Shown here in pieces: positions 6,834-29,942 of a stretch of DNA of 50,336 bases. Made by a program: the position numbers and the translations under genes. The number at the start of each line of letters is the position of its first letter. Position 1 is the first letter of the stretch. The notes under the pieces were generated by a model. It was not told where the DNA came from. It did not search any database and saw only the letters and a program-made list of their open reading frames with translations. Source of the DNA: Curtobacterium luteum (lineage in GTDB: Bacteria > Actinomycetota > Actinomycetes > Actinomycetales > Microbacteriaceae); assembly GCF_001475545.1 (NCBI RefSeq), contig NZ_LDQC01000083.1, forward strand, positions 1 to 50,336. Reading direction: 5' to 3'.

Positions 6834-6853
6834 GCGACCCTCCGCCTCGACGA

Positions 6854-6889
6854 CGAACGGCCCTCCCGGACGCCCGGGAGGGCCGTTCG
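6854..6889 (+). terminator. Hairpin terminator after the DUF805 gene
   Basis: A perfect 16-bp stem (CGAACGGCCCTCCCGG and complement) with a 4-nt loop, 20 nt after the stop codon. There is no T-tract, as is usual in this GC range. Position after a stop and before a convergent gene supports termination. Confidence 0.75.
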
Positions 6890-6970
6890 CGTCTGCGGCG
6901 CGGTTGTGGCGCCGGCACGGACGTCGGGTCCGAGCGATCGCTGCCGACCAGCCGTGCACGGATCCGGTTC

Positions 6971-7009
6971 CGCTCGGCGGCGCGCAGATGCGGCGCCGCT
7001 CGGCGGCGC
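6971..7009. repeat. Short direct repeat in the 309-bp convergent gap
   Basis: The 13-mer CGCTCGGCGGCGC occurs at 6971-6983 and 6997-7009. The gap 6834-7142 otherwise holds only the two hairpins annotated here; I see no gene in it. Confidence 0.5.
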
Positions 7010-7018
7010 ACAAGCGAA

Positions 7019-7056
7019 GCCCGTCCGAACCGCGAAGACGCGTGGTTCGGACGGGC
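7019..7056. terminator. Bidirectional hairpin between convergent genes
   Basis: Stem of GCCCGTCCGAACCGCG with CGTGGTTCGGACGGGC, 16 bp including one G-U pair, loop AAGACG. It lies between the convergent DUF805 and TNT genes. Its CCGAACC/GGTTCGG core resembles the hairpins flanking the gene at 26244. Confidence 0.65.
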
Positions 7057-7142
7057 GTTGCTCGTGTGGACGCGGCGGGCGTGGTGGACGCGGCGCGGGC
7101 GCGTCGTGCGGGCGCGGTTCAGGCGGTCCCGGTCGGGCGGCG

Positions 7143-23518: not shown

Positions 23519-24382
23519 ATGAGCACGGACAACCCGCTGAACGACCCCGCCGCCGACCCGTTCGAGGTCGCACGCGCCGCCGCCGACGTCATCGCGTCGA
23601 AGTCGGGGATCGAGCGGCACGACATCGCCCTGACCCTCGGATCCGGATGGGGCAAGGCCGCCGACATCATCGGCGAGACGGTCTCCGAGATCCCCGCGTC
23701 GGAGGTCCCCGGCTTCAGCGCCTCGGCCGTCCCCGGACACTCCGGCACGGTGCGCTCCATCGCCCTGCCGGACGGTCGCCACGCCCTCGTGATCGGTGCC
23801 CGGACGCACTACTACGAGGGCCACGGCGTCCGCCGCGTCGTGCACAGCGTCCGCACCGCCGCGGCGACGGGCGCCGCGGTGATGATCCTCACGAACGGGG
23901 CCGGTGGCATCAAGGAGCACTGGACGCCGGGCACGCCGGTCCTCATCAGCGACCACATCAACCTGACCGCCGACAGCCCGCTCGAGGGCGCGACCTTCGT
24001 CGACCTCACCGATCTCTACTCGGCACGACTCCGCGCCGTCGCACGCGGCGTGGACCCCTCGCTGGACGAAGGCGTCTACACGCAGTTCCGCGGCCCGCAC
24101 TACGAGACCCCGGCCGAGGTGCAGATGGCGAAGACCATCGGCGGGCACATCGTGGGCATGTCCACCGCGCTCGAGGCCATCGCCGCACGGCAGGCGGGCA
24201 TGGAGGTCCTCGGGTTCTCGCTCATCACGAACCTCGCGGCGGGCATCCAGAAGACGCCGCTGTCGCACGCCGAGGTGCTCGAGGCCGGCCGCGAGGCCGA
24301 ACCGCGCATCGCCGACCTGCTCGCCCGCGTGGTGGCGGCGATCGGGTCGTCGCCGGAGGCCGCCGAGGGATCCGCACTGTGA
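23519..24382 (+). CDS. Purine-nucleoside phosphorylase (trimeric, PNP/MTAP family)
   Basis: Cleaves inosine and guanosine nucleosides with phosphate to purine base and (deoxy)ribose-1-phosphate. The 287-residue length fits the trimeric family. Motifs: TLGSGWGKAAD (phosphate loop, Ser), HYYEGHGVRRVVHSV, LTNGAGGIKEHWTPG and GPHYETPAEVQMAK, plus the C-terminal ITNLAAGI loop. Start ATG 23519 has a TAGGAT -10 six bases upstream. Its GTGA stop overlap with the mutase gene links phosphorolysis directly to use of the sugar phosphate. Confidence 0.95.
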   Translation: MSTDNPLNDPAADPFEVARAAADVIASKSGIERHDIALTLGSGWGKAADIIGETVSEIPASEVPGFSASAVPGHSGTVRSIALPDGRHALVIGARTHYYEGHGVRRVVHSVRTAAATGAAVMILTNGAGGIKEHWTPGTPVLISDHINLTADSPLEGATFVDLTDLYSARLRAVARGVDPSLDEGVYTQFRGPHYETPAEVQMAKTIGGHIVGMSTALEAIAARQAGMEVLGFSLITNLAAGIQKTPLSHAEVLEAGREAEPRIADLLARVVAAIGSSPEAAEGSAL

Positions 24383-26043
24383 AGCTCGACGTCGACGCGG
24401 TCGTCGCCGCCGGGCGTGCCTGGTCCGCGCAGGACCCCGACGACGAGACCCGTGCCGAGCTCGACGCCGCCGTCGCGGCAGCGGCGAGCGGGGACGGGCC
24501 TGCCGTGCAGGAGCTCGCCGCGCGTTTCGCCGGTCGTCTGGCGTTCGGCACCGCAGGACTGCGCGCCGAGCTCGGGTACGGCCCGTTGCGGATGAACCGT
24601 GTCGTGGTGACGCAGGCCGCCGCGGGACTGGCCCGCTTCCTCATCGACTCCGGTCGGTCCCGGAGCGTCGTCATCGGGTACGACGGGCGCGTCAACTCCG
24701 ACGTCTTCGCCCGCGACTCCGCCGAGGTCATGCGCGGGCTCGGGCTCGACGTCACCCTGCTGCCGTCCGCGCTGCCCACCCCGGTGCTGGCGTTCGCCGT
24801 CCGGCACCTCGGGGTCGGTGCGGGTGTGATGGTCACCGCGAGCCACAACCCTCCGCGTGACAACGGCTACAAGGTGTACCTCGGCGAGGGCGACGAGGGC
24901 TCGCAGATCGTCCCCCCGGTCGACGCGACCATCGCCGCAGCCATCGACGCCGTCGCGGCCGGGTCGATCGTCGACCTCCCCCGGGCGACGGACTACACCG
25001 TGGCGGGCCCGGACCTCCTCGAGGCCTACGTCGCCGCGACGGCCGCCACCGTACCTGCGCCGGCGCTCCCCGCGCCGGACCAGCCGACCGTCGTGTACAC
25101 GGCGATGCACGGCGTCGGGTGGGAGACCGCACGTGCCGTGTTCGAGCGGGCCGGGTACGCGGTCCCGGACACCGTCCCGGAGCAGATCCAGCCGGACGGC
25201 GCCTTCCCGACGGTGTCGTTCCCGAACCCGGAGGAACCGGGCGCGATGGACCTCGCGATCGCACGCGGCCTTGCGGCTGGTGCCGACCTGGTGATCGCGA
25301 ACGACCCCGATGCCGACCGCCTCGCGCTCGCGATCCCGGACGGTGCGGGCTCCTTCCGACGGCTCTCCGGCAACGAGGTGGGATGGCTCCTCGGGTGGCA
25401 GGCCGCTGCCCGCGCGGCCTCCGACCGACGGGGTGGCACGCTCGCTGCCTCCATCGTGTCCTCGCCCGCACTGGCTCGTGTCGCGGAACGGCACGGTCTG
25501 GGGTACCGCGACACGCTGACCGGCTTCAAGTGGGTGTCGCGCGTGCCGGACCTGGTGTTCGGCTACGAGGAGGCGCTCGGGTACCTCGTCGACCCCGATG
25601 TCGTCCGTGACAAGGACGGCATCTCCGCGGCCCTGGCGCTGCTGGACCTCGCAACGACGCTCGCGGCCGACGGTCAGACCATCGCCGACCGCCTCGAGGC
25701 CTTCGCCGCCGAGTTCGGCGCGTTCGCGTCCGGGCAGGTGGCGACACGGGTGGACGACCTCGCGCGCATCGGCGAGATCATGGCCGCGCTCCGGGCCGAC
25801 CCGCCGTCGTCGCTCGGTCCGGTGGCCGTGCGGTCGGTGACGGACTACGCAGACGGGGCCGACGGGTTCCCGCCGTCGGACATCCTGCGGTACGACCTCG
25901 AGGGCGACGCCCGCGTGATCGTCCGGCCGAGCGGGACCGAGCCGAAGGTCAAGGTCTACATCGACACGGTCGCGGGGACGTCCGCCGAGGCTCAGGGCCT
26001 CGTCGACGCCCTCGCCACCGCCGTCCGCCCCCTCGTGTCGTAG
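24379..26043 (+). CDS. Phospho-sugar mutase (PGM2/phosphopentomutase-like)
   Basis: A 554-residue alpha-D-phosphohexomutase-superfamily enzyme. The phosphoserine loop is MVTASHNPPRDNG. The metal loop is IANDPDADRLAL. The sugar-binding loop GYEEALGYL and the phosphate loop RPSGTEPKVKVY complete the four domains. The length and N-terminal GRLAFGTAGLRAELG are typical of the PGM2-type branch, which includes enzymes acting on pentose-1-phosphates. Coupling to purine nucleoside phosphorylase argues for conversion of ribose-1-phosphate to ribose-5-phosphate. Phosphomannomutase or phosphoglucomutase activity cannot be ruled out. The GTG start overlaps the previous stop. Confidence 0.9.
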   Translation: MKLDVDAVVAAGRAWSAQDPDDETRAELDAAVAAAASGDGPAVQELAARFAGRLAFGTAGLRAELGYGPLRMNRVVVTQAAAGLARFLIDSGRSRSVVIGYDGRVNSDVFARDSAEVMRGLGLDVTLLPSALPTPVLAFAVRHLGVGAGVMVTASHNPPRDNGYKVYLGEGDEGSQIVPPVDATIAAAIDAVAAGSIVDLPRATDYTVAGPDLLEAYVAATAATVPAPALPAPDQPTVVYTAMHGVGWETARAVFERAGYAVPDTVPEQIQPDGAFPTVSFPNPEEPGAMDLAIARGLAAGADLVIANDPDADRLALAIPDGAGSFRRLSGNEVGWLLGWQAAARAASDRRGGTLAASIVSSPALARVAERHGLGYRDTLTGFKWVSRVPDLVFGYEEALGYLVDPDVVRDKDGISAALALLDLATTLAADGQTIADRLEAFAAEFGAFASGQVATRVDDLARIGEIMAALRADPPSSLGPVAVRSVTDYADGADGFPPSDILRYDLEGDARVIVRPSGTEPKVKVYIDTVAGTSAEAQGLVDALATAVRPLVS

Positions 26044-26094
26044 CGCCGGCGCGCCTCGCGCGCGGGGAGATGGTGCAGTTACCGCATCGATCCG

Positions 26095-26162
26095 CGGAAA
26101 CGACATCGAACCAGCAGGAGGTGCTGGTTCGATGTCGCACTCGTGGTTCGACGCGACTCCTG
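26095..26162. repeat. Flanking hairpin element, copy A
   Basis: A 68-bp element containing a perfect 16-bp stem (26101-26116 with 26122-26137) around a GGAGG loop, followed by CGTGGTTCGACGCG. It aligns without gaps to copy B at 27194-27261; by my count about 52 of 68 positions match. It lies between the mutase stop and the AbiEi-like gene. Confidence 0.8.
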
Positions 26163-26206
26163 CACATGCGATCGCAGCCGCGTGTCGTCCACACGGCCGA
26201 AGCTGA
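26132..26206 (+). CDS. Possible 24-codon leader peptide
   Basis: A short open frame starting ATG with AGGAGG (26116-26121) 10 nt upstream. The Shine-Dalgarno is exposed in the loop of hairpin copy A. It ends 37 nt before the AbiEi-like gene. It could be a regulatory leader or chance; copy B has no equivalent start. Confidence 0.2.
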   Translation: MSHSWFDATPAHAIAAACRPHGRS

Positions 26207-26243
26207 CGGCGCTCCAGAGCGAACCCGCGCGCACGATGACCAG

Positions 26244-27179
26244 ATGTCCGTCCCGCACCTCATCGTTGCTCATCCCGATCCCGCCGCGGCGAGGAAGCAG
26301 CAGCGTGACGTGCGGAGCGGTGCGCTGCTCCGCGTGGCCCACGGCGTCTTCGTGACCCGGGCGGAGTGGGAGACTGCGACGACGTGGGAACAGCACATCG
26401 CGCGCGCCGCGGCCGTCCAGCTCCGGTCGCCTGGCAGCATCGTGTCGCATGCATCAGCGGTCATCGTTCATCGGCTCCCTTGGATCCGGCCGGTACCCGA
26501 CCGTGTCACTCTGCTCGTTCCCGGCCGGGCCACGGCGCAGCGCACCCGGTTCGCTGACAAGGTCGCAACGACAGGTCGCGAGCTCGACACCGTCTCCGTG
26601 GACGGCGTGGACGTCACCGACCCCGCCACGACGGCAGTCGACGTCGCACTGCGGTACGACCGTGGACGCGCTCTCATGGTGGCCGACGCGGTCCTCCGCC
26701 GCGGCTGGCCGGAGGAACTGCTCGCCGGGCGAGCTGCCGCCCGGCCGAACGTGCGGGCGAGTCGTCGGCTCCGCGACGTGCTCAAGCTCGCATCACCGTT
26801 GTCCGAGTCCGCGGGGGAGAGCATCACCCACCTGGCCATGCACGACCTCGGCTTGCCTGCTCCCGTGCAGCAACAGGCCTTCCGCGACCAGGCCGGATTG
26901 ATCGGTCGCGTCGACTTCTGGTTCCCGGACCACGGCGTCGTCGTGGAGTTCGACGGTCTGGTGAAGTACCGCGACGCATCCCACCGCTCCGGCCGTTCGG
27001 CGGAAGAAGTCGTCATCGACGAGAAGCTGCGCGAGGACCGCCTCCGCGCGGTGCCCGACGTCCGCCACGTCGTGCGGCCCGTCTGGCGCGACGTCATGCC
27101 CGGCGGTCGACTCCCGACGATGCTTTCGGCAACAGGCTTGCCTGTTGCTCGGGGCATCACGGCGACGCTGCCGTGGTGA
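26244..27179 (+). CDS. AbiEi-like HTH protein with PD-(D/E)xK-type C-terminal domain
   Basis: A 311-residue protein. The N-terminal part (about 15-80) resembles the AbiEi antitoxin-type winged-helix region: RKQQRDVRSGALLRVAHGVFV, then SHASAVIVHRLPWI. The C-terminal part (about 185-270) resembles DUF559/Vsr-like nuclease folds: SAGESITHLAMHDLGLP, then RVDFWFPDHGVVVEFDGLVK, giving Asp224, Glu235, Asp237 and Lys241 in a PD-(D/E)xK-like order. Such proteins are common in Microbacteriaceae without a known toxin partner, and none is seen here. ATG 26244 is chosen since conservation starts just after it; the open frame extends to 26070 through a hairpin. Its base use looks less GC-skewed than its neighbours. 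Function is unknown: repressor, orphan antitoxin or nuclease. Confidence 0.75.
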   Translation: MSVPHLIVAHPDPAAARKQQRDVRSGALLRVAHGVFVTRAEWETATTWEQHIARAAAVQLRSPGSIVSHASAVIVHRLPWIRPVPDRVTLLVPGRATAQRTRFADKVATTGRELDTVSVDGVDVTDPATTAVDVALRYDRGRALMVADAVLRRGWPEELLAGRAAARPNVRASRRLRDVLKLASPLSESAGESITHLAMHDLGLPAPVQQQAFRDQAGLIGRVDFWFPDHGVVVEFDGLVKYRDASHRSGRSAEEVVIDEKLREDRLRAVPDVRHVVRPVWRDVMPGGRLPTMLSATGLPVARGITATLPW

Positions 27180-27193
27180 CCACTGACGAACTA

Positions 27194-27261
27194 CGAAAAC
27201 GACGTCGAACCGACTCGGGGAGCTGGTTCGACGTCGTTTTCGTGGTTCAACGCGGCTCGCG
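27194..27261. repeat. Flanking hairpin element, copy B (also likely terminator)
   Basis: A perfect 18-bp stem (27194-27211 with 27225-27242) with a 13-nt loop, ending in a TTTT-containing arm, followed by CGTGGTTCAACGCG. It is a direct repeat of copy A and lies between two convergent genes, so it can terminate both. Confidence 0.82.
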
Positions 27262-27292
27262 GCTCGCGGCACGCGCCGCGAGCGCGCCCGCC

Positions 27293-29071
27293 CTACGCGA
27301 GCTCGAGCAGCACGTGGCCGGACGAGATCGTCTGGCCGACGGGGGCGTTGAGCGACTTCACGACTCCGTCGCGGCTCGCCTGCACGGGCTGCTCCATCTT
27401 CATGGCCTCGAGCACGACGAGCAGGTCGCCCTTCACCACGGTGTCACCCTCGGCGACCGCGACCTTCACCACGGTCGCCTGCATGGGCGACGTCACCGAG
27501 CCCGACGAAGCGAGCCCGCCGCGGACGCCGGACGACCGACGCTTCGGGGGAGCGGACGGCCCCGCGGGGCGACGACCGGCGGCACCGGCAGCGCCACCGC
27601 CGACGATCGACGGCATGGTGACCTCGATGCGCTTGCCCTGCACCTCGACCACGACGGTGTCGCGCGGCGTCGGAGCGGGCAGCTCCTCGGTCGCACCGCT
27701 CCACGCCGGGATGTCGTTGACGAAGTCGGACTCGATCCACTGCGTGTAGATGCTGAAGGGCGTCTCGTCGTCCGTGGCGAAGGCCGGGTCCGACACGACG
27801 GCGCGGTGGAACGGGAGCACGGTCGGCAGGCCGGTGACCTCGAACTCCGCGAGGGCACGACGGGACCGCTCGAGCGCCTCGGCACGCGTGGCGCCGGTCA
27901 CGATCAGCTTCGCGAGCATCGAGTCGAACGAGCCGGACACGACGTCGCCGGACACGACGCCGGAGTCGACGCGGACGCCGGGGCCGGACGGCGCGTTGAA
28001 GGCGTGCACCGGGCCGGGCGCGGGGAAGAAGTTCCGGCCGGCGTCCTCGCCGTTGATGCGGAACTCGAACGAGTGGCCCTTCGGCGCAGGGTCCTCGTAG
28101 TCGAGCACGCCGCCCTCGGCGATGCGGAACTGCTCGCGCACGAGGTCGATGCCCGTGACCTCCTCGGAGACGCAGTGCTCGACCTGCAGGCGCGTGTTGA
28201 CCTCGAGGAACGACACGGTGCCGTCGGCCCCGATGAGGAACTCGCAGGTGCCGGCGCCGACGTAGCCGACCTCGCGCAGGATCGCCTTGGACGACTCGTA
28301 GAGGCGCTCCTGCTGGTCGTCCGTCAGGTACGGCGCGGGGGCCTCCTCCACGAGCTTCTGGTGGCGGCGCTGCAGCGAGCAGTCGCGCGTGGAGACGATG
28401 ACGACGTTGCCGTGCTGGTCCGCGAGGCACTGGGTCTCGACGTGGCGCGGCTTGTCGAGGTACTTCTCCACGAAGCACTCGCCGCGACCGAACGCTGCGA
28501 TGGCCTCACGCGTGGCCGATTCGAAGAGTTCCTCGACCGACGAACGGTCTCGCACGACCTTGAGCCCGCGGCCGCCGCCGCCGAAGGCCGCCTTGATCGC
28601 GACGGGCAGTCCGACCTGGTCGACGAAGTCGAAGACCTCGGACACGTCCTGCACGGGCTCGATGGTGCCGGGTGCGAGCGGTGCGCCGACCTTCTCGGCC
28701 ACGTGGCGGGCGGAGACCTTGTCACCGAGGCGCTCGATCGACTCCGGCGACGGTCCGATCCAGGTCAGCCCGGCGTCGATCACGGCACGGGCGAAGTCGG
28801 CGTTCTCCGCGAGGAACCCGTACCCCGGGTGGACCGCGTCCGCGCCGGACCGGCGAGCGACGGAGATGATCTTGTCGATGACGAGGTAGGTCTCGGCGCT
28901 CGTGGTGCCGTTCAGCGCGTACGCCTCGTCGGCGAGACGGGCGTGGAGGGCGTCACGGTCCTGGTCGGCGTAGACAGCGACCGATGCCTTGCCTGCGTCG
29001 CGGGCCGCGCGGATGATGCGGACGGCGATCTCGCCGCGGTTCGCGATGAGGACCTTGCTGATACGGGGCAT
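27293..29071 (-). CDS. Acyl-CoA carboxylase biotin carboxylase/BCCP subunit
   Basis: Alpha subunit of an actinobacterial acyl-CoA carboxylase, 592 residues, supplying malonyl- or methylmalonyl-CoA. The biotin carboxylase part (about 1-450) starts [21 protein letters not shown]. It has the ATP-grasp glycine loop [12 protein letters not shown] and the active-site [19 protein letters not shown] Pro/Ala/Gly-rich linker with Arg follows (about 490-515). The C-terminal carrier domain has [11 protein letters not shown] with biotinyl-Lys558. It resembles AccA3. Its partners, beta and epsilon subunits, lie about 6 kb away on the same strand, with the biotin ligase beyond. TACGCT eight bases before ATG 29071 suggests leaderless transcription. 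Confidence 0.95.
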
Positions 29072-29150: not shown

Positions 29151-29942
29151 CTACATCGACCACAGGTCGTGCCACGTCGCGCCGAACCCGCGCAGCAGCA
29201 TCGAGCGCAGCACCGGCAGCGACAGGCCGACGACCGCCGACGGCGCACCGTCGATCCGGGTGATGTACGCGGCCGCCCGACCGTCGATCGTGAAGGCCCC
29301 GGCGACCTCGAGCGGTTCCCCGCTCGCGACGTACGCGTCGATCTCGTCGTCCGACACGTCGTCGGCGAAGGTCAGCACCGCGCTGTCGACCGCGACGACG
29401 CGGTCGCCGTCGGCGACCATCGCGGACCCGCCGGGCGCGGCGTCACCGATCAGGCCGTCACCGGCCGGGGAGGTGGGCAGCGGTCGGACGGGAGGCACGG
29501 TGCGGTCCCGCCCCGCGCCTCCCGGCCCGGACGCGGTCGCCCCCAGGGCCGTGGTGCGGTCCGCACGGCGGTCCAGCACGCAGTGCCCGCTCCACAGCGT
29601 CCCACCGCCCACCGCGAGCATCTGCCGCCACCGCTCCCGCGCGACCGCCGGGTCGTGGGGCTTGCCGTAGAGCGTGCCGTCGACCTCGAAGGCGGAGTCG
29701 CCGCCGAACACGAACCCGTCGACCGGGCGCCCGGCGACCTCCGCGTCCGCGACGGCCGAGGCCTTCGCGACCGCGAGCAGCGAGACGAGCTCCGGCCCGG
29801 ACAGCTGCCGTCCGAGGGTGGCCTCGTGCGCGGCGACCGCGGCGTCCTCGTCGACCCCCGGCGCCACGAGCACGGGCTCGATGCCGGTCTGGGCGAGCAG
29901 GGCGCGGCGGGCGGGGGAGGTACTCGCGAGGTACAGACGCAT
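29151..29942 (-). CDS. maf: Maf-family nucleotide pyrophosphatase with internal insertion
   Basis: Hydrolyses non-canonical or selected nucleoside triphosphates (housecleaning role), as known for the Maf family. The 263-residue protein is longer than the usual ~200. The N-terminal signature LASTSPARRALLAQTGI and the GGDSAFEVDG and YGKPHDPAVARE motifs are intact. So is the C-terminal YVASGEPLEVAGAFTIDG region. Between them residues about 135-178 are extra, Gly/Pro/Arg-rich, and encoded by DNA containing the GGAGGCACGG repeat core (29490-29523). The insertion stays in frame. Only 14 bp separate its start from the divergent methyltransferase gene. Confidence 0.92.
   Translation of the reverse strand: MRLYLASTSPARRALLAQTGIEPVLVAPGVDEDAAVAAHEATLGRQLSGPELVSLLAVAKASAVADAEVAGRPVDGFVFGGDSAFEVDGTLYGKPHDPAVARERWRQMLAVGGGTLWSGHCVLDRRADRTTALGATASGPGGAGRDRTVPPVRPLPTSPAGDGLIGDAAPGGSAMVADGDRVVAVDSAVLTFADDVSDDEIDAYVASGEPLEVAGAFTIDGRAAAYITRIDGAPSAVVGLSLPVLRSMLLRGFGATWHDLWSM
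29490..29523. repeat. Palindromic-repeat copy inside maf
   Basis: GGAGGCACGGTGC (29491-29503) is identical to 13 bases of the 5019-5058 palindrome. GGGAGGC (29490-29496) pairs with GCCTCCC (29517-29523). It sits in the extra segment of the Maf protein. Confidence 0.65.

Follow-up and report, generated by a model that had tools for sequence, protein, structure and literature searches.

A 50,336-nucleotide stretch of Curtobacterium luteum DNA (contig NZ_LDQC01000083.1, assembly GCF_001475545.1; referred to here as the window) carries a 311-codon gene with a palindrome on each side. The gene lies between a phosphomutase gene (pgm) and a convergent biotin carboxylase/biotin carrier protein gene (acc), and in Curtobacterium it is exchanged together with its palindromes, as a unit, at this site. 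Its product joins an AbiEi-like region to a Vsr-like nuclease fold, and palindromes of the same type are dispersed elsewhere in the genome. These observations suggest, with a probability of roughly 0.6, a palindrome-recognizing nuclease with cognate dispersed palindromes that resembles in its working the repetitive extragenic palindromes (REPs) and their REP-associated tyrosine transposases (RAYTs), without being a member of that system. The features of the locus are as follows, the E values of the two palindromes coming from a covariance model that was built from sequences including both of them.

24379..26043, + strand: phosphomutase gene (pgm-like), the conserved left neighbour (Pfam PGM_PMM I-IV), which adjoins the gene in related loci
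26086..26152: upstream type A palindrome, arms 26086-26112 and 26126-26152, 13-nt spacer 26113-26125 (model E 6.7e-16)
26244..27179, + strand: 311-residue gene for the AbiEi-like and Vsr-like nuclease protein
26247..26795, + strand: AbiEi-antitoxin-like part, residues 2-184
26802..27143, + strand: Vsr-like PD-(D/E)xK nuclease part, residues 187-300
27185..27251: downstream type A palindrome, arms 27185-27211 and 27225-27251, 13-nt spacer 27212-27224 (model E 6.2e-18)
27293..29071, - strand: biotin carboxylase/biotin carrier protein gene (acc; Pfam), the convergent right neighbour, which adjoins the gene in most related loci

A member of the gene family adjoins pgm or acc, as different alleles, in 63 of 66 Curtobacterium genomes (denoted by G numbers, with loci denoted by L numbers). 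No member was placed there in the other three, namely G028, in which the three fetched members lie elsewhere, and G035 and G040, which gave no match. Of these 63 loci, 59 have flanking palindromes that form a matched pair, scoring at least 40, a threshold chosen after the scores were seen; the best of 400 shuffles reached 37. The exceptions are the loci of G051, G064, G011 and G060, and in G051 and G064 acc is missing from the right side as well. Species differ in the palindrome sequence of the pair, which is of type A here and of type B, C, D, E, G, G1, G2 or H elsewhere (the types A-H of gene loci were called by eye, with G, G1 and G2 being related groups). The median score within a member's own pair is 71 (73 loci), and palindromes of different members in one genome have a median score of 15 (30 comparisons, 27 loci) against a null median of 14.

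Matched pairs are also nearly confined to this gene family. A control scan covered three 400-kb regions with 1,011 called genes. Stems lay on both sides of 126 of these, and pairs scoring at least 40 were present at two, both of them members of the AbiEi-Vsr family, with two unrelated genes at 39 and 30; two more family members called there lacked a stem upstream, and the pgm/acc-site gene of G009 and that of G001 escaped the gene caller. At other sites, where the loci are a chosen part of all paralogues, family members have a matched pair in only 13 of 45 testable cases, and the arrangement is thus not universal in the protein family. One group of paralogues (L125, L132-L134, L150, L153, L237 and L238) showed a palindrome on the upstream side alone. 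Members from two further genera of the family (L246-L248) gave a matched pair at score 112 in G068 and none in the two loci of G069.

Exchange at the pgm/acc site is evident from 55 loci in which the protein identity is 66% in the median (56-100%) for pairs of the same palindrome type and 46% (38-70%) for pairs of different type, with about equal similarity of the flanking genes (87% and 85%, respectively). The flanks of G041 and G013 (types B and E) are 98.5% identical and the genes 43.7%; for the genome of the window and G009 (types A and C) the values are 95.6% and 51.7%. Placed on the gene tree, palindrome type requires seven changes, the minimum for eight states, whereas on the tree of pgm and acc flanking DNA it requires 27, compared with an average of 34.4 for shuffled labels (both trees are quick ones without bootstrap, and leave out G039, in which the gene is in two pieces, and loci without pgm or acc in the fetched stretch). 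At the gene, the type stays within a protein clade in all 55 loci save for a split of the related group G1. Since type follows the gene tree far better than the flank tree, gene and palindromes have been exchanged together. In seven inspected pairs, from a list of the 14 closest pairs of different type, identity reaches about the stop codons of both neighbours and then drops; intergenic spaces diverge fast, and exact exchange edges cannot be claimed. The original prediction, made from the window alone, of a cassette that moves or is exchanged at its ends therefore holds as to exchange of the unit and not as to coming and going, a relative being at the site in 63 of 66 genomes. Coupling of protein and palindrome is likewise supported, by the matched pairs and their contrast with palindromes of other members in the same genome, by the agreement of type with the gene tree and by the lean of dispersed copies described below.

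The palindromes of the window are 67 bp each, with perfect inner stems of 16 and 18 bp and the common end CGTGGTTC[G/A]ACGCG, and match as direct copies at 76% over 72 bp without gaps (26088-26159 and 27187-27258), all in keeping with the initial description of stems, ACGCG end and direct copies bracketing the gene. They are not private to the gene: BLAST and the covariance model, the latter built from 19 copies, show the type A family to be dispersed in the 3.59-Mb genome, with 22 places at E < 1e-5. In each of the 19 aligned copies, arms of 27 bp enclose a spacer that is always 13 nt long but free in sequence, as expected of a pair of binding sites in double-stranded DNA. Two copies cut by contig ends (C140 and C182) were left out of the aligned set, and three further model hits (C1, C175 and C173) lie outside the closer inspection; BLAST hit C170 was dropped, as no palindrome was seen on inspection. 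Only the whole palindrome carries signal, since the end motif alone is at chance frequency (13 matches, with as many in 40 of 100 shuffles). A strict pattern with 12-bp arms had no match in the window, and no Rfam family was found there. Integron attC sites were set aside because most copies lie between ordinary convergent genes; integrases were not searched for.

Palindromes other than type A also occur in this genome. One, at 6999-7077 of the window (G000w#5), is type-G-like by a weak model match and lies in the convergent space 6834-7142. A paralogue on contig C5 (L032, 82-969) has a matched pair, at score 82, of very different palindromes (GAGACTCG...GGACACTTTCG), the pattern of which had no further copy in 253 kb of sequence from this genome.

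Fixed patterns applied genus-wide found type C in 39 of 66 genomes, D in 20, E in 48, G in 29 and A in 25 (0 or 1 for reversed patterns), with up to 57 palindrome copies per genome. Among 58 typed genomes, and excluding the two gene-flanking copies, copies of each of these five types are more numerous where the gene is of that type (Mann-Whitney p 1.2e-4 for A, 5.6e-5 for C, 7.9e-7 for D, 9.4e-5 for E and 1.1e-5 for G). Tree-aware pairs summed over types give 17.5 in the same direction and 2.7 in the opposite one, with no single type significant.

Different types also occupy shared slots. Four close species were compared over roughly 100 kb, where three places are of type D in G004 and of type C in G061; G032 has type D at two of them by pattern and at the third by eye, and G001 has D at two and lacks one. 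Around one of the three D/C slots, 2.4 kb are about 94% identical between species; a fourth slot, in G001 near 2,576,214, had no placement in G061 or G032. In more distant genomes, too, the type in an orthologous convergent space can differ, A, G and D being one example. Orthologous convergent spaces typed in both species numbered 2, 4 and 3 against 1.2, 1.0 and 1.9 expected, a weak excess obtained with pattern typing that misses types seen by eye. Such differences could reflect replacement or repeated insertion into favoured places. Separately, regions of G009, G030 and G001 (L155-L214) contain a family of long hairpins centred on GGACGGGAGGCGCGG; these lie in convergent as well as tandem gene spaces and resemble ordinary terminators.

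The structure model of the 311-residue protein joins an AbiEi-like fold to a Vsr-like nuclease fold, and the PADLOC AbiEi models support the AbiEi-like part, in agreement with the combination read from the sequence at the outset. The curated AbiEi model NF047376 gives 13.1 bits for the window protein against a cut-off of 150; DUF559 (PF04480) has no Pfam match in it and matches one of 13 family members at E 0.06. A profile search of PDB sequences returned a single hit, to an unrelated protein (E 0.044). Both the fold and the conserved acidic residues of the PD-(D/E)xK superfamily are present, and Glu192, Asp224, Glu235, Asp237 and Lys241 of the nuclease part are invariant among the 54 pgm/acc-site members counted. 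The protein is thus modelled as an AbiEi-like region followed by a PD-(D/E)xK-like domain with predicted nuclease activity.

The gene was taken as 26244-27179 with a putative start, in preference to a longer 369-residue open reading frame beginning at 26070, which would cross the first palindrome. Its third-position GC content (GC3) of 0.83 is about 6 standard deviations below the mean of 0.948 (standard deviation 0.019) of the 42 other called window genes, which agrees with the unusual composition noted earlier. The absence of a partner gene was likewise confirmed, no toxin gene being found beside it and Pfam identifying the two neighbours as phosphomutase and biotin carboxylase/biotin carrier protein. 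Farther to the right, a Maf-like gene (29151-29942) matches Maf profiles in two separate parts, and the roughly 60 unmatched residues that separate these may be an insertion.

In the proposed mechanism, the AbiEi-like half would bind the two arms of a palindrome of its own type as paired inverted repeats, as the analogy with the AbiEi family suggests, and the Vsr-like half would nick or cut there. The observed exchange of the gene, together with the palindrome at each end, at its slot in the chromosome would result from this action, possibly with the protein itself as the driver, and copies of the palindrome would spread to convergent-gene spaces or replace the palindromes already in them, so that cutting, mobility and copying may all depend on the protein. 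A more specific form of this mechanism, which is tentative and the less probable of the two, is a homing-like contest in which each AbiEi-Vsr nuclease would cut rival-type palindromes, or slots lacking its own, and have its own palindrome copied in; a new gene would then overwrite the genome type by type, and rival genes with their palindromes would displace each other at one slot.

Several observations weigh against a palindrome-recognizing nuclease with cognate dispersed copies. The fit between gene and copies is loose: of 46 genomes, 30 have the gene's own type as the commonest among the five and 16 do not (G020 being a tie), the latter including the genome of the window itself (16 copies of A, 21 of G and 11 of C by pattern). 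G004 and G044 have 30 and 32 type D copies with a type E gene. Such exceptions may arise from a lag after recent exchange. In addition, homologous recombination in the neighbouring genes could carry the exchange.

REP-like repeats are present in many bacteria. In REP/RAYT systems as described, a palindrome stands on either side of a single gene and recurs in intergenic spaces, many of them at convergent 3' ends, and the genes are repeat-specific (PMC2817692; PMC3733652). The repeats usually number more than 100 copies per genome (PMC2817692) and have a GTAG or CGTC tetranucleotide head; at least one large class, the CGTC REPs, is said to be without a dedicated transposase (PMC3733652). The present system is similar in that a single gene lies between two copies of a cognate palindrome dispersed among genes (59 of 63 loci; 22 places in the C. 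luteum genome). It differs in having an AbiEi and Vsr fold in place of a Y1 transposase, in its longer palindromes with a fixed spacer and at most 57 copies per genome, and in a gene that keeps one chromosomal slot and is swapped there. The Y1 (RAYT) transposase family PF01797 was found in none of the 66 Curtobacterium genomes and in five of 14 control genomes, other transposase families not having been searched for, and membership in REP/RAYT therefore fails.

The AbiEi proteins are described as autoregulators acting through inverted repeats; AbiEi binds a pair of 23-bp inverted repeats, as does its relative Rv2827c, the spacings being 3 and 13 bp (PMC3985639; PMC7319586). Residues 2-184 share the fold of these components of the AbiE type IV toxin-antitoxin systems, and the two inverted repeats with short fixed spacing are a likely binding site. 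In contrast to AbiE, the gene has no AbiEii/DUF1814 toxin neighbour and is thus not part of such a toxin-antitoxin pair; the protein has an additional nuclease domain, and palindromes resembling binding sites lie on both sides of the gene and are dispersed in the genome. Compared with Vsr and other PD-(D/E)xK nucleases (TnsA, XisH and DUF559), it is fused to an AbiEi-like part, with no evidence here of mismatch repair or of a Tn7-like partner. Searches of open-licence PMC papers listed no title or abstract linking AbiEi or DUF559 proteins with dispersed palindromes.

Two rival readings stand out, one of a regulator whose operators lie at 3' ends and one of terminators that hitchhike. The former, which is rather unlikely, holds that the protein is a regulator or 3'-end factor. 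The dispersed palindromes would then be its binding sites in convergent-gene spaces and serve as roadblocks, terminators or insulators, those beside the gene would be operators, and the protein would move nothing. Autoregulation by AbiEi proteins through inverted repeats, as cited above, would fit, as would the placement of the aligned type A copies, 16 of 19 being between convergent genes and three between tandem genes as called by a home-made gene caller, although in three of the 16 the called left gene sits 303, 540 and 2127 bp off (binomial p 1.5e-9 against about 19% convergent spaces in three related 400-kb regions). The palindrome is also preserved by covariation of its arms, with both sides changed in nine of 27 pairs and the observed score reached by none of 500 shuffles, although relatedness among copies can by itself, in the absence of structure, exceed this control. 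However, the nuclease residues are invariant, one of the palindromes lies downstream of the gene, and repeated exchange of the unit and different types at shared slots are unlike a stable regulon.

Ordinary bidirectional terminators unrelated to the protein, hitchhiking with a defence-like locus that is exchanged by homologous recombination in its conserved neighbours, are improbable. The window palindromes do fold stably as single strands (z -7.0 and -8.0, with none of 200 shuffles equally good), and the convergent location and the terminator-like hairpins of other sequence in the same kind of place are in line with such a role. Against it, no T-run follows the two stems (a search of 25900-27500 for a T-run after a G+C-rich stem, covering loops of 3-8, found none, and the 25 bases after either palindrome stem contain no T-run), the spacer is fixed in length and free in sequence, dispersed copy numbers lean with gene type, and the control scan gave pairs of at least 40 only at AbiEi-Vsr family members, even if unrelated genes reached 39 and 30. 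Least probable are REP or MITE (miniature inverted-repeat transposable element) repeats moved by an ordinary transposase, with the nuclease gene a bystander, since the dispersed, intergenic, 3'-end location resembling that of REPs and the copy number of up to 57 are offset by the coupling of the palindromes to the AbiEi-Vsr family and, for the only transposase family searched, by the PF01797 result.

A palindrome-recognizing nuclease of this kind would make a RAYT-unrelated family with type-specific cognate palindromes a testable agent in an actinobacterial genus, and the gene-palindrome types would offer matched proteins and DNA sites, varied by nature, for the study of specificity. Solitary genes that score near AbiEi antitoxins in family models, yet have no adjoining toxin, might thereby be given a role. 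If the homing-like contest were true, the system would represent a class of repeat system, selfish or domesticated, that does without a transposase.
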